DNA from: Dysgonomonas hofstadii
GTDB lineage: Bacteria; Bacteroidota; Bacteroidia; Bacteroidales; Dysgonomonadaceae
Assembly (NCBI RefSeq): GCF_014196915.1
Contig: NZ_JACIEP010000012.1
Coordinates: forward strand, 1 to 64,000
Length of the DNA: 64,000 bases
Reading direction: 5' to 3'
The notes beneath the pieces are model-generated. The model was given only the letters and a program-made list of their open reading frames with translations, was not told the origin of the DNA and did no database searches. Both the position numbers and the translations under genes were made by a program. Positions 15,700 through 19,235 of this stretch are shown piece by piece (positions within the stretch are counted from its first letter, which is position 1; every line of letters starts with the position of its first letter).

Positions 15700-16272
15700 T
15701 TAGTCCTTATCTTTCTTCTTCACAGACCACCCGAATCCACCTATTCTATTTCCCAGATCATAGTATTGACCATGAGAGTAAGCAATAGGATGAGCGTCTT
15801 CAAGACTAAACTTCCCTGTTTCTTCATCTATATGTTTTTCGTCAGCTTTTACATTTACCACATCGGCAATAAACATATCGTGAGACCCGAGGCTGAGTAT
15901 TTCTTTAACCCTGCATTCTATGTTGAGAGGCGACTCCTCTATAATGGGAGCCTGCACTATGGATGCTCTGCCTGCCGTAAGTCCCATCTCTTCGAATTTA
16001 TTGAAGTCCCGGCCTGATCTTACACCGCACCAGTCTGTAGCATAAGCCAGTTCCTGGGTGGTAATATTGATTACAAATTCCATATTCTTCTTAATGATTT
16101 CATAGGAATGGCGTTCGGGACGCACAGAGATATAGCACATCGGCGGATTGGTACAGATCGTACCCAGCCAGCTGAGTGTAATAATATTGTATTCTTCGGG
16201 TGACGATCCGCAACTGATCATAGCTGCAGGTAAAGGGTAAATAAGTGTGCCCGGTTTCCAGTCCTGCTTCAT
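15700..16272 (-). CDS. Flavin reductase-family (FMN-binding) protein
   Basis: The 190-residue protein fits the flavin reductase-like domain: an N-terminal WKPGTLIYPLPAAMIS strand region, NIITLSWLGTIC and SVRPERHSYEIIKKNMEFVIN, the FMN-binding split barrel. Such enzymes reduce or bind flavin and may supply reduced flavin to a partner. Its start overlaps the pyrI stop by four bases (ATGA), so it is translationally coupled to the pyrimidine genes. Dihydroorotate and pyrimidine metabolism use flavins, but a direct role in that pathway is only a guess from the operon. Confidence 0.85.
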   Translation of the reverse strand: MKQDWKPGTLIYPLPAAMISCGSSPEEYNIITLSWLGTICTNPPMCYISVRPERHSYEIIKKNMEFVINITTQELAYATDWCGVRSGRDFNKFEEMGLTAGRASIVQAPIIEESPLNIECRVKEILSLGSHDMFIADVVNVKADEKHIDEETGKFSLEDAHPIAYSHGQYYDLGNRIGGFGWSVKKKDKD

Positions 16273-16730
16273 TTGAGGATGATCTCGTCTTTATTTATCT
16301 TGATATCACAATAGTGACAGCGTAATTCTATCTTCCCCGCATCTATAACCTCAAAATGAGTGAGCATAGGTTCGTTATTGGTAATACATTTAGGGTTATT
16401 ACATTTTACTATGCCTTTTATTGTTTGAGGCAGTACTACGCGCTTTTTCTCCACTACTTCATAATCATGAATAATATTCAGCACGACATTAGGGGCGATC
16501 AGGGCTATCTTATTAATAACTTCCTCTTCGAAGAATTTATCTGAAACCTTGATAATCCCTTTAGAACTCATCTTCTTGCTTTCAAGATTATTCCCTATGG
16601 TAATCGGGTTCTTTATCTTTTCCAGCTCAAGCAACGAAACTACTTTAAATACGACATTAGATGGTATATGGTCTATTGCTGTTCCGTTGCAAAGAGCAGC
16701 AACCTGTAATTCTGTTCTGCGTTCTTTCAT
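16269..16730 (-). CDS. pyrI: Aspartate carbamoyltransferase regulatory chain
   Basis: The 153-residue protein is the regulatory chain of ATCase. It has the N-terminal allosteric nucleotide-binding domain (about 8-98) and a C-terminal zinc domain with four cysteines in the arrangement CxxxxC...CxxC (KCNNPKC and RCHYC). It binds CTP and ATP and joins catalytic trimers into the dodecameric holoenzyme that controls pyrimidine synthesis. It starts 4 bp after pyrB and overlaps the flavin reductase gene by 4 bp. Presence of pyrI means the enzyme here is the feedback-regulated type. Confidence 0.96.
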   Translation of the reverse strand: MKERRTELQVAALCNGTAIDHIPSNVVFKVVSLLELEKIKNPITIGNNLESKKMSSKGIIKVSDKFFEEEVINKIALIAPNVVLNIIHDYEVVEKKRVVLPQTIKGIVKCNNPKCITNNEPMLTHFEVIDAGKIELRCHYCDIKINKDEIILK

Positions 16731-16734
16731 AAGT

Positions 16735-17652
16735 TTACTCTATTACGATGTTTAGTGAATCACAAATTACAGCCTGACGGGTGAAAACCCCGTTTTTAGC
16801 CTGTTCAAAATAGTACGCTTTGGAGCTGTCGTCTACATCCTGATCGATTTCATTAACTCTCGGCAGAGGATGTAATATCCTCAGGTTATCTTTTGTGTTA
16901 GCTATCATCTCTCTTTTCAGGATATATACATTCTTCACCTTTTCATATTCCATAAGGTCGGTAAAACGTTCACGCTGCACACGGGTCATATAGAGTATGT
17001 CGGCATTATCTATCACTTCCGGAGCAAATTCTGTAAACTCCTTATACCTTATTCCACGCTGGTCACAGAAAGCCTTGTATGATTCAGGCAGGCGTAACTC
17101 TTCGGGTGCAACAAAGTAGAATGTAGGATTAAAATGTGACATTCCTATTATCAATGAATGTACAGTGCGTCCATATTTCAGATCACCCACAATAGTGATT
17201 GTCAGATTCTCCAAAGATCCTTGTGTCTTATAGATGGAATACATATCCAGCATCGTTTGTGTAGGATGCTGATTAGCCCCGTCTCCGGCATTGATGATGG
17301 GTACAGACGAGACTTCCGAAGCGTAGCGCGCTGCTCCTTCAAGGTGATGGCGCATAATGATAACATCGGCATAATTGCTAACCATAGCAATGGTATCTTT
17401 CAGCGTTTCCCCTTTTGTGGAACTGGTAGTAGATGCATCGGAAAATCCGATAATCCGTCCGCCCAGCCTGTTTACTGCAGTTTCGAAGCTAAGGCGGGTG
17501 CGGGTAGACGGCTCAAAGAAGAGAGTAGCGCATACCTTACCTTCCAGTAGTCTGCGGTTGGGGTTTTCATCAAATTTCTGTGTCAGATTCAATATTCTCA
17601 GAATGTCTTCCCTCGAATAGTCTGTAATTGAAACTAAGCTTTTTTTACTCAT
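16735..17652 (-). CDS. pyrB: Aspartate carbamoyltransferase catalytic chain
   Basis: The 305-residue enzyme joins carbamoyl phosphate and aspartate, the first committed step of pyrimidine synthesis. The carbamoyl-phosphate site FFEPSTRTR (45-53) and HPTQT (129-133) are intact, and the C-terminal aspartate domain has the [10 protein letters not shown] loop. The length is standard. It heads a pyrB-pyrI-flavin reductase operon. Upstream, a leader of about 150 nt contains a candidate attenuator and a 41-codon reading frame ending 2 bp before this ATG, so expression may respond to pyrimidine supply as in enteric pyrBI. Confidence 0.97.
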
Positions 17653-17654
17653 GT

Positions 17655-17780
17655 TTATCTGTTTTGATGAATTTGTATATCAAAAAAAATCCCCGAAAAA
17701 GAAAATCTTTCCGAGGATAATATATTAAAATTATCTGATAACTGCGAACGATATAGGGGTTGCATTTTACTATTAAACAT
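17655..17780 (-). CDS. Candidate 41-residue pyrB leader peptide
   Basis: A reading frame begins with ATG at 17780, about 20 nt after the predicted transcription start. It runs uninterrupted through the terminator-like hairpin and stops with TAA two bases before the pyrB ATG. The peptide starts [13 protein letters not shown] and contains the Phe/Ser-rich FSFSGIFFD encoded by the U-rich part of the hairpin. E. coli pyrBI has a 44-codon leader peptide that likewise spans its attenuator, and coupled translation there prevents termination when UTP is low. The parallel here is structural and the frame could be chance in AT-rich DNA; there is no homology evidence. Confidence 0.45.
17682..17717 (-). 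terminator. Candidate pyrB attenuator
   Basis: On the minus strand ATCCTCGGAAAG pairs with CTTTTTCGGGGAT, giving about 12 pairs including G-U, and is followed by a run of eight T residues. It lies in the leader of pyrB, 30 bp before the start codon, after a predicted promoter and inside the leader reading frame. A terminator in this place has no upstream gene to end, which points to attenuation. Confidence 0.65.
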
Positions 17781-17806
17781 ACAGTTTATTATCTGATCTT
17801 ACCATA

Positions 17807-17814
17807 CAAAGTTA
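17807..17814 (-). promoter_or_regulatory. pyrB operon -7 box TAACTTTG
   Basis: A perfect TAnnTTTG match on the minus strand predicts a transcript start near 17801. That gives a leader of about 150 nt before pyrB and places the leader-peptide ATG about 20 nt into the RNA. Confidence 0.55.
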
Positions 17815-17863
17815 GGTACTTTTTTTGAGATAAAGGCTTATAATTTATAAATAGTTTTGGATC

Positions 17864-17891
17864 AAAAGCCTCTTTTGTAAAAGAGGCTTTT
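17864..17891. terminator. Perfect 13-bp stem terminator
   Basis: AAAAGCCTCTTTT pairs perfectly with AAAAGAGGCTTTT over a 2-base spacer. It lies 11 bp after the stop codon of the minus-strand carboxynorspermidine synthase gene and separates it from the pyrB promoter. Confidence 0.85.
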
Positions 17892-17902
17892 GATTTTTAT
17901 GC

Positions 17903-19096
17903 TTACATTTCCAGATCTATGTCAAACAATTCGTGCCAAGGCAGTCCTTGTTTGTTCAGTTGTTCCATAAACGGATCGGGATTGAATTCTTCCACATTGA
18001 ATACACCCGGTTTACGCCACAGGCCTTTCATAAACATAATGCCTCCGATAGTGGCAGGGACTCCGGTGGTGTAGCTGACAGCCTGCATTCCTGTTTCTTT
18101 GTAAGCAGCTTCGTGCGAACAGTTATTATAAATATAATAAGTGCGTTCCTTCCCGTCTTTTATTCCTTTTATGCGGCAACCGATAGAAGTTTCTCCCTTG
18201 TAATTTTCTCCCAGTTCTCCCGGATCGGGAAGCACAGCTTTCAAAAACTGGATAGGGATGATTTCCACCCCGTTATAAATAACAGGATCGATACGGGACA
18301 TACCTATATTCTGTATCACACGGAGGTGAGTCAGATATTCCTGGCCGAAGGTCATCCAAAAACGGGCACGCTTCAACGTTGGGTAATTCTTTACCAGAGA
18401 TTCCAATTCTTCATGATATATCACATACGATTCTTTAGGTCCGATATTCGGATATATCAGCGGTTTGTGTATCGCATGAGGTTCGGTTTCCACCCATTCT
18501 CCGTTTTCCCAGTACTTTCCTTTCTGGGTAACTTCACGGATATTTATTTCCGGGTTGAAGTTCGTAGCGAAAGCCTTGCCGTGGTCTCCCGCATTACAAT
18601 CTACGATGTCCAGATAATGAATTTCATCAAAGTGGTGCTTAGCTGCATAAGCAGTAAAAATACTGGTAACGCCCGGATCAAATCCACAGCCCAGTATAGC
18701 AGTTAATCCGGCTTCCTTAAATTTGTCCTGATATGCCCATTGCCATTTATATTCAAATTTAGCTTCGTCTTTTGGCTCGTAATTAGCTGTATCGAGATAG
18801 TTAACGCCGCATGCCAGACAAGCGTCCATTATTGTCAGATCCTGATACGGTAAAGCTACATTGATCACAAGGTCGGGCTTAAATGAATTGAATAGCTTTT
18901 TCAGGTCTTCTACATCATCGGCATCCACCCGTGCGGTTTTTATTTTGTTGCCTCCGATAGCTTCAGCTATGGCATCACATTTCGATTTGGTACGGCTGGC
19001 CAGCATGATTTCGTCAAAAACGTCCATGTTCTGAGCCACTTTATGTGCTACAACAGTGCCAACACCTCCGGCACCTATGATTAAAACTTTTCCCAT
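17903..19096 (-). CDS. Carboxynorspermidine synthase (saccharopine dehydrogenase family)
   Basis: The 397-residue protein starts with an NAD(P)-binding Rossmann motif (GKVLIIGAGGVGTVVAHKVA). It then has the saccharopine dehydrogenase-like body with GCGFDPGVTSIF and the C-terminal AVSYTTGVPATIGGIMFMKG. In gut Bacteroidota this subgroup is the carboxynorspermidine/carboxyspermidine dehydrogenase, which reductively condenses a diamine with aspartate semialdehyde in an alternative spermidine pathway. The decarboxylase partner (nspC) is not in this window. The ATG at 19096 is chosen over an upstream frame to 19177, because the Rossmann strand starts there and a -7 box lies at 19124-19131. Lysine-pathway saccharopine reductase is the main alternative. 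Confidence 0.85.
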   Translation of the reverse strand: MGKVLIIGAGGVGTVVAHKVAQNMDVFDEIMLASRTKSKCDAIAEAIGGNKIKTARVDADDVEDLKKLFNSFKPDLVINVALPYQDLTIMDACLACGVNYLDTANYEPKDEAKFEYKWQWAYQDKFKEAGLTAILGCGFDPGVTSIFTAYAAKHHFDEIHYLDIVDCNAGDHGKAFATNFNPEINIREVTQKGKYWENGEWVETEPHAIHKPLIYPNIGPKESYVIYHEELESLVKNYPTLKRARFWMTFGQEYLTHLRVIQNIGMSRIDPVIYNGVEIIPIQFLKAVLPDPGELGENYKGETSIGCRIKGIKDGKERTYYIYNNCSHEAAYKETGMQAVSYTTGVPATIGGIMFMKGLWRKPGVFNVEEFNPDPFMEQLNKQGLPWHELFDIDLEM

Positions 19097-19123
19097 TATT
19101 TTGATTTTTATATTCTCGTTATG

Positions 19124-19131
19124 CAAAAATA
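19124..19131 (-). promoter_or_regulatory. -7 box TATTTTTG of the carboxynorspermidine synthase gene
   Basis: A TAnnTTTG match on the minus strand stands 27 bp before the ATG at 19096 and supports that start. Confidence 0.5.
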
Positions 19132-19156
19132 GTATTTTATACCGATAGGCTGATAA

Positions 19157-19235
19157 ATGTTGACAAAGTTTACACACTTTTCAGTTTTTAATCAGCCTCT
19201 ACTTTTTAACTAAAACCTGACAAAGGTGACAAGTT
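19157..19235. repeat. Dispersed intergenic repeat, copy 2
   Basis: This stretch contains GTTGACAAAGTTTACAC near its left side and the 19-mer TTTAACTAAAACCTGACAA (19205-19223) followed by AGGTGACAAG. The same two blocks in the same order occur at 56417-56513. Both copies lie in spacers of minus-strand genes. Confidence 0.6.

Follow-up and report, generated by a model that had tools for sequence, protein, structure and literature searches.

A candidate pyrBI-like leader-peptide attenuator ahead of pyrB in Dysgonomonas and other Bacteroidales

The pyrB gene of Dysgonomonas hofstadii is preceded by a short leader that probably works as a ribosome-dependent transcription attenuator in the manner of enteric pyrBI; on the comparison of sequences presented here, we give this reading a probability of about 0.7. 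A pyrBI-like leader-peptide attenuator is well supported because the hairpin, the ATG and the open frame are conserved among relatives and because substitutions favour the leader frame. In the mechanism we propose, RNA polymerase would start just past a TAnnTTTG promoter box, transcribe a short ORF and then reach a terminator ahead of pyrBI. A slow polymerase in the leader, as expected at U-rich stretches when UTP is short, would let the ribosome on the leader ORF catch up and, at or near the end of the ORF, cover the foot of the hairpin, so that pyrBI is transcribed. If polymerase is fast because UTP is plentiful, the hairpin would form first and transcription would stop. We infer that the leader ORF is translated, that transcription terminates at the hairpin and that UTP is the signal.

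All parts of the locus lie on the minus strand of the window, by which we mean the whole 64,000-nucleotide stretch that was analysed. The initial annotation had listed a promoter box, a 41-codon ORF, a hairpin with eight T residues and a pyrB ATG two bases past the ORF stop, and each of these was confirmed. The −7 box, TAACTTTG, is of the Bacteroidota TAnnTTTG type and was read from the sequence at 17814–17807. The pyrL-like leader ORF (17780–17655), whose start position is matched in relatives and whose coding signature is seen in relatives, reads across the hairpin and stops 2 nt ahead of pyrB. The candidate attenuator itself is an intrinsic terminator hairpin of 12 pairs (17718–17689, dG −12.6) with its T tract, again read from the sequence, at 17682–17689. 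The gene that follows, pyrB (16735–17652, ATG at 17652), encodes the catalytic chain of aspartate carbamoyltransferase (TIGR00670, 375.1 bits, cut-off 236.95), and after it comes pyrI (16269–16730), encoding the regulatory chain (TIGR00240, 151.2 bits, cut-off 148.55). The top-scoring relatives of this pyrB come from Dysgonomonas. Upstream, on the same strand as pyrB, lies a gene at 17903–19177 that resembles carboxynorspermidine synthase, at 429 bits, below the curated cut-off of 800. This gene is followed by its own terminator-like palindrome (17859–17896, minus strand, detected as a plus-strand listing), which precedes the box. The inner hairpin therefore has no upstream gene to terminate, as had been proposed.

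Taken singly, such sites are not enriched: there were 17 promoter-like sites, compared to 20.3 in shuffles, and 4 terminator-like sites, compared to 4.7. It is therefore comparison that decides. Our within-genome control covered 464 kb of the same genome and comprised the 146 genes whose upstream gap measured 130 nt or more; the hairpin dG limit was −9. Four of the 146 had a strict box together with a terminator, and at pyrB only was there a leader ORF too. The control could not catch carA, because its stretch lay outside those taken in and its ORF is shorter than 20 codons.

Within the genus, the order of parts is kept throughout. We took 900 nt upstream of pyrB (570 nt in one case), left the last two box bases free, and found pyrB in 23 of 25 genomes; one fragment (L025) was left out. 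Box, leader ORF of at least 20 codons and hairpin were present at all 24 pyrB places. The length of the frame is a different matter: the 41 codons claimed initially hold in the window, but most relatives differ, with 17 of the 24 leaders having 24–31 codons and stopping 3–15 nt before the hairpin, and the other 7 running into or through it. At four places (L015–L018, of which L015 also appears as the D. mossii record L040) the hairpin begins 247–562 nt before pyrB, compared to 48–145 nt in the other 20, which indicates extra DNA between leader and pyrB; box, ORF and hairpin are kept there.

Across Bacteroidales, 192 upstream regions (104 + 28 + 60), 60 of them from the better pyrB matches among those listed, were reduced to 167 by dropping those that shared their last 200 nt. 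With a hairpin limit of dG −7, some terminator-like hairpin occurred in 116 of the 167, and 63 had a terminator within 160 nt of pyrB with a box 80–145 nt ahead of it; boxes looser than TAnnTTTG were admitted in 13 of these 63. We counted as a leader ORF any frame of at least 20 codons that starts no more than 40 nt from the box and ends no earlier than 20 nt before the hairpin, and applied the same rule to the null. Leader ORFs were found in 53 of the 63 box-plus-terminator leaders, compared to 7.5 expected from dinucleotide-keeping shuffles. With strict boxes the count was 48 of 50 (6.2 expected), with strict boxes outside the window's family 25 of 27 (4.1 expected), and with one leader per family code and six titled loci kept singly 17 of 19 (2.8 expected). 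Eight of the ten leaders that gave no such ORF had loose boxes. Hairpin sequences vary between families, and the leader is carried beyond the genus by, among other titled loci, those of Coprobacter (L085, L103) and Candidatus Barnesiella (L099). The comparison with relatives that had been suggested for hairpin, ATG and open frame thus came out in favour of the leader, in the genus and in the order.

The element is patchy. Leader ORFs occur in 12 of the 44 family codes sampled, and, beyond the genus, none was found in the 12 loci that bear the title Dysgonamonadaceae, two of them having less than 200 nt upstream. No box-plus-terminator pair was found in 104 of the 167 upstream regions, although a few of these do have the leader farther up. 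By eye, many upstream regions have a promoter close to pyrB instead. Five loci (L090, L122, L128, L154, L158) fall outside our criteria and have, partly by eye, ORFs of 6–12 codons followed by a terminator before pyrB; these mini-leaders are possibly reduced versions. In L135 we saw by eye a loose box, a small hairpin, a U-rich stretch and a terminator before pyrB; it has no qualifying ATG ORF, and a GTG-started frame would end within the hairpin.

The codon-type substitution pattern that the initial annotation had proposed as a check was also found. In 14 pairs of related leaders, substitutions numbered 73, 72 and 98 at the three codon positions, favouring the third, and pN/pS was 0.50 in the leader frame, compared to 0.79 and 0.87 in the other two frames. 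The leader ORF shows, in these comparisons, the substitution signature expected of a protein-coding frame. Internal gaps in the leader alignments had no bias to multiples of three (2, 2, 2). The peptide sequence differs widely among leaders, and by eye no codons for a single amino acid are repeated across them. Of the 53 ORFs, 18 stop at or before the start of the hairpin, 18 stop up to 30 nt after it and 17 stop further on.

What is narrowly kept is the distance from the start codon to the hairpin, with a median of 89 nt over the 53 leaders and 47 of them within 84–96 nt, a range that holds 32% of the 1938 qualifying ORFs from shuffles. Six leaders (L009, L012, L014, L019, L052, L085) have two qualifying starts, of which we took the second by hand; with first starts throughout, 44 of 53 are in this range. 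For these comparisons the Dysgonomonas group denotes 28 leaders, namely family code f1 plus titled loci up to L052, assigned by title and identity; L050 and L052 are included though titled only Bacteroidales bacterium. Start-to-hairpin distance is 88.5 nt (MAD 1.5) in this group and 90 nt (MAD 3) in the 25 others, whereas the distance from box to hairpin is 111.5 nt in the group and 98 nt in the rest. The latter differs because the start codon sits 17–37 nt past the box in the Dysgonomonas group and 6–10 nt past it in 22 of the 25 others. In Flavobacterium, the TAnnTTTG consensus is placed at −12 to −5 (PMC9723704). If transcripts here likewise begin 5 nt past the box, as that position implies, the start codon of most leaders outside the group would be preceded by just a few bases.

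With the chosen starts, the leaders outside 84–96 nt are L022, L049, L150, L160, L184 and the window's own copy (L001), in which the distance is 62 nt, the shortest of the 24 genus places. The window copy also has no U block, with CCCTATATCG at −40 to −31. Compared by eye with L005, it appears to have lost about 8 nt containing the usual stop and about 18 nt of the ORF. Since this comparison suggests loss of the usual stop, both the 41-codon length and the 2-nt spacing ahead of pyrB are probably derived features, and it is probably by coincidence that they resemble E. coli. The proposal of pyrBI-type attenuation is well supported by the 24 genus places, the 53 of 63 leaders and the pN/pS values, but the 41 codons and the 2-nt gap, which look most enteric in this copy, are not conserved. 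What is conserved is the position of the ORF's end, which lies at, within or past the hairpin, and the close range of start-to-hairpin distances, a range that the window copy falls outside.

We next consider RNA structure. After two of 20 hairpins that were out of register had been dropped, the terminator hairpin alignment of 18 rows had 96.2% of cells paired and three pairs with change on both sides; its covariation is weak, with 23 of 500 shuffles as high. A trp-type antiterminator was rejected, as pairing of the terminator's 5′ arm with the upstream leader was at shuffle level (mean z 0.06 and 0.28; 0 of 53 below −2). Excess structure in the leader is mild, with mean z −0.65 in the 28 group leaders and −1.30 in the 25 others. 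An upstream hairpin with a U tract after it is no more than suggestive: across the 53 leaders the median p is 0.27, and 11 of them fall below 0.1. The start region pairs with a downstream leader segment at mean z −0.90 in the 28 Dysgonomonas-group leaders, which are not independent, and at −0.30 in the 25 others. In the window, the counterpart of the helix in other Dysgonomonas is a possible long-range helix (17740–17786, minus strand) between 17781–17786, directly before the leader ATG, and 17740–17745; the window copy alone gives it no support (p 0.76, z 0.5), leaving a group trend only. By eye, eight Dysgonomonas leaders (L003–L009, L011) have a stem of 7–10 bp; its 5′ arm ends 0–6 nt short of the leader ATG, and one change affecting both sides of the stem was seen (L008, L009). 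It is tempting to speculate that start-region pairing in the Dysgonomonas group could shut off the start codon after polymerase has moved past, sharpening the race. No known RNA family was matched at the Rfam gathering score in the window, 13 loci or 6 carA loci.

A U-rich block lies 31–40 nt before the hairpin in the Dysgonomonas group, with 61% U in 23 strict-box leaders. As a universal feature, a UTP pause tract is not supported: the 25 strict-box leaders outside the group have no U-rich block, with 25–34% U over the 60 nt before the hairpin. UTP-dependent pausing is thus unproven outside the Dysgonomonas group.

Could the signal be something other than UTP? A ribosome-dependent attenuator that senses general translation capacity, or another nucleotide (a purine or CTP), would fit the wide differences in peptide sequence and the U content outside the Dysgonomonas group. 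The position ahead of pyrBI and, in Dysgonomonas, of carA points instead to pyrimidines, as does the U-rich block of that group, and we regard such a signal as unlikely. Attenuation of the amino-acid type, in which scarcity of an amino acid halts the ribosome at its codons and an antiterminator forms, shares with the present leaders an ORF with a terminator, and PMC9723704 offers clues for leader-peptide attenuation of amino-acid operons in Flavobacterium. However, it would lead one to look for repeated codons for one amino acid and for a competing antiterminator, and neither was seen in these leaders, the codons by eye. Moreover, 35 of the 53 ORFs enter or cross the hairpin, so that finishing translation would block termination. 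We consider this type quite improbable.

Still less probable is a terminator controlled by an RNA-binding protein or metabolite that acts on leader structure, with the ORF incidental. The mild excess of structure and the start-region pairing of the Dysgonomonas group speak for it, but hairpin and leader sequences vary between families while ORF and spacing stay, none of the leaders compared with Rfam matched at the gathering score, and PyrR over the cut-off was not found in 60 Bacteroidales. Chance, meaning that AT-rich DNA happens to contain an open frame and a terminator-like hairpin, had been allowed for in the initial annotation, and single promoter-like and terminator-like sites are indeed as common in shuffles. 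It is hardly credible given conservation in genus and order, the start-to-hairpin spacing, and a composite found at one of 146 control genes, namely pyrB. We return to the ribosome-dependent attenuator as the preferred reading: the ORF ends near, in or past the hairpin and there is no competing antiterminator, so a ribosome near the end of the ORF would prevent termination.

PyrR-controlled attenuators of the Bacillus type have a terminator in the pyr leader, and in this the present leaders resemble them; the difference is that PyrR is not found over the cut-off in 60 Bacteroidales and that a leader ORF is present and conserved. A PyrR-type attenuator was rejected on the count of 0 of 60 Bacteroidales genomes, and none in the window's own genome; weak matches below the cut-off occurred in 53 of the 60, the best at 34.5 bits compared to the required 138. 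In a phylum-wide sample, PyrR was over the cut-off in 72 of 118 genomes, and in other Bacteroidota pyrR lies beside pyrB (e.g., G351, G343, G316, G300). It was unmatched in the other 46, the window's own genome included. Because other sampled genomes lack PyrR too, its absence is not specific to Bacteroidales.

Among other pyrimidine genes of the window's genome, pyrE has no such leader by eye, and carA has a promoter, a short ORF and a terminator, also by eye. Counting ORFs of at least 8 codons that end no earlier than 10 nt before the hairpin, we found an ORF reaching the hairpin in all 23 full-length carA leaders of the genus, compared to 10.1 expected; the shortness of these ORFs makes the test a weak one. 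The Dysgonomonas carA leaders (L257–L279) are strongly conserved, with a first hairpin CTCAGATATTCA/GAGTATTTGA (17 of 23 folded), then a purine-rich short ORF (such as MRKKKIQYLLL) and a terminator GGAAC...GTTCC with T tract; a second TAnnTTTG-like box often lies past the terminator. This leader is analogous to that of pyrB but different. A further hairpin, GGTTTTYACGATAGAAACC, lies just past the promoter upstream of carA in L288, L290, L294, L300 and L303, from several Bacteroidales family codes, and differs in its last stem bases in L294 and L303. These are 5 of the 28 order-level carA loci; in them, judged by eye, the hairpin loop ACGATAG has its complement CTATCGT no more than a few bases from where carA begins, which makes a candidate pseudoknot covering the start site. 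This order-level hairpin had no Rfam match.

The nearest known counterpart is the E. coli pyrBI attenuator with pyrL (b4246), in which there is likewise a leader ORF, a terminator inside it or at its end, and then pyrB and pyrI. The start-to-hairpin distance is 88 nt in E. coli K-12 pyrL, compared to the Bacteroidales median of 89 nt. A U-rich stretch precedes the hairpin in E. coli (7 U of 10 at 21–30 nt) and, among Bacteroidales, in the Dysgonomonas group only, at 31–40 nt. PyrB is homologous to E. coli PyrB, with 51% identity in the window copy (155 of 302 columns); homology is shown for the enzymes only, and by eye the Bacteroidales leader peptides look unrelated to E. coli pyrL. The promoter, unlike that of E. 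coli pyrBI, is a Bacteroidota promoter, and outside the Dysgonomonas group 22 of 25 leaders start so close to the box, 6–10 nt past it, that little 5′ UTR is left, again unlike E. coli. Furthermore, E. coli pyrL ends 47 nt past the start of the hairpin, whereas 17 of the 24 Dysgonomonas leaders stop before it. In enteric pyrBI, preventing termination requires the coupled translation of pyrL, according to PMC5021804.

Within the phylum, Bacteroid-trp (RF01692) and the Flavobacterium amino-acid leaders are likewise candidate cis-regulatory leaders, as described in PMC2864571 and PMC9723704; they belong to amino-acid operons, and no Rfam match was found for the present leaders. In the main texts of the open-licence papers searched, we found no report of a pyrB attenuator in Bacteroidales. 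We take Bacteroid-trp to be a Trp-codon leader.

The comparison suggests that translation-timed control of the kind seen in the E. coli switch is also at work in a distant phylum. At somewhat less than even odds, we would extend this to a broader picture, in which part of the Bacteroidales controls pyrimidine synthesis without PyrR by a translation-timed attenuator whose start-to-hairpin ruler of about 89 nt equals that of E. coli though the leaders look unrelated and Bacteroidota, to our knowledge, do not rely on Shine-Dalgarno sites. In this picture initiation outside the Dysgonomonas group would be nearly leaderless, because the leader ORF begins almost at the predicted 5′ end, only a few bases from it, and a second switch of related design would act on carAB in Dysgonomonas. 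Such an attenuator offers an answer to how pyrimidine synthesis may be controlled in some Bacteroidales where PyrR is not found. That the start-to-hairpin distance keeps to so narrow a range in two phyla suggests that the speeds of ribosome and polymerase set a physical ruler. A conserved switch that can work only if ribosomes in Bacteroidota follow RNA polymerase closely enough to control it makes such close following testable in cultured strains.
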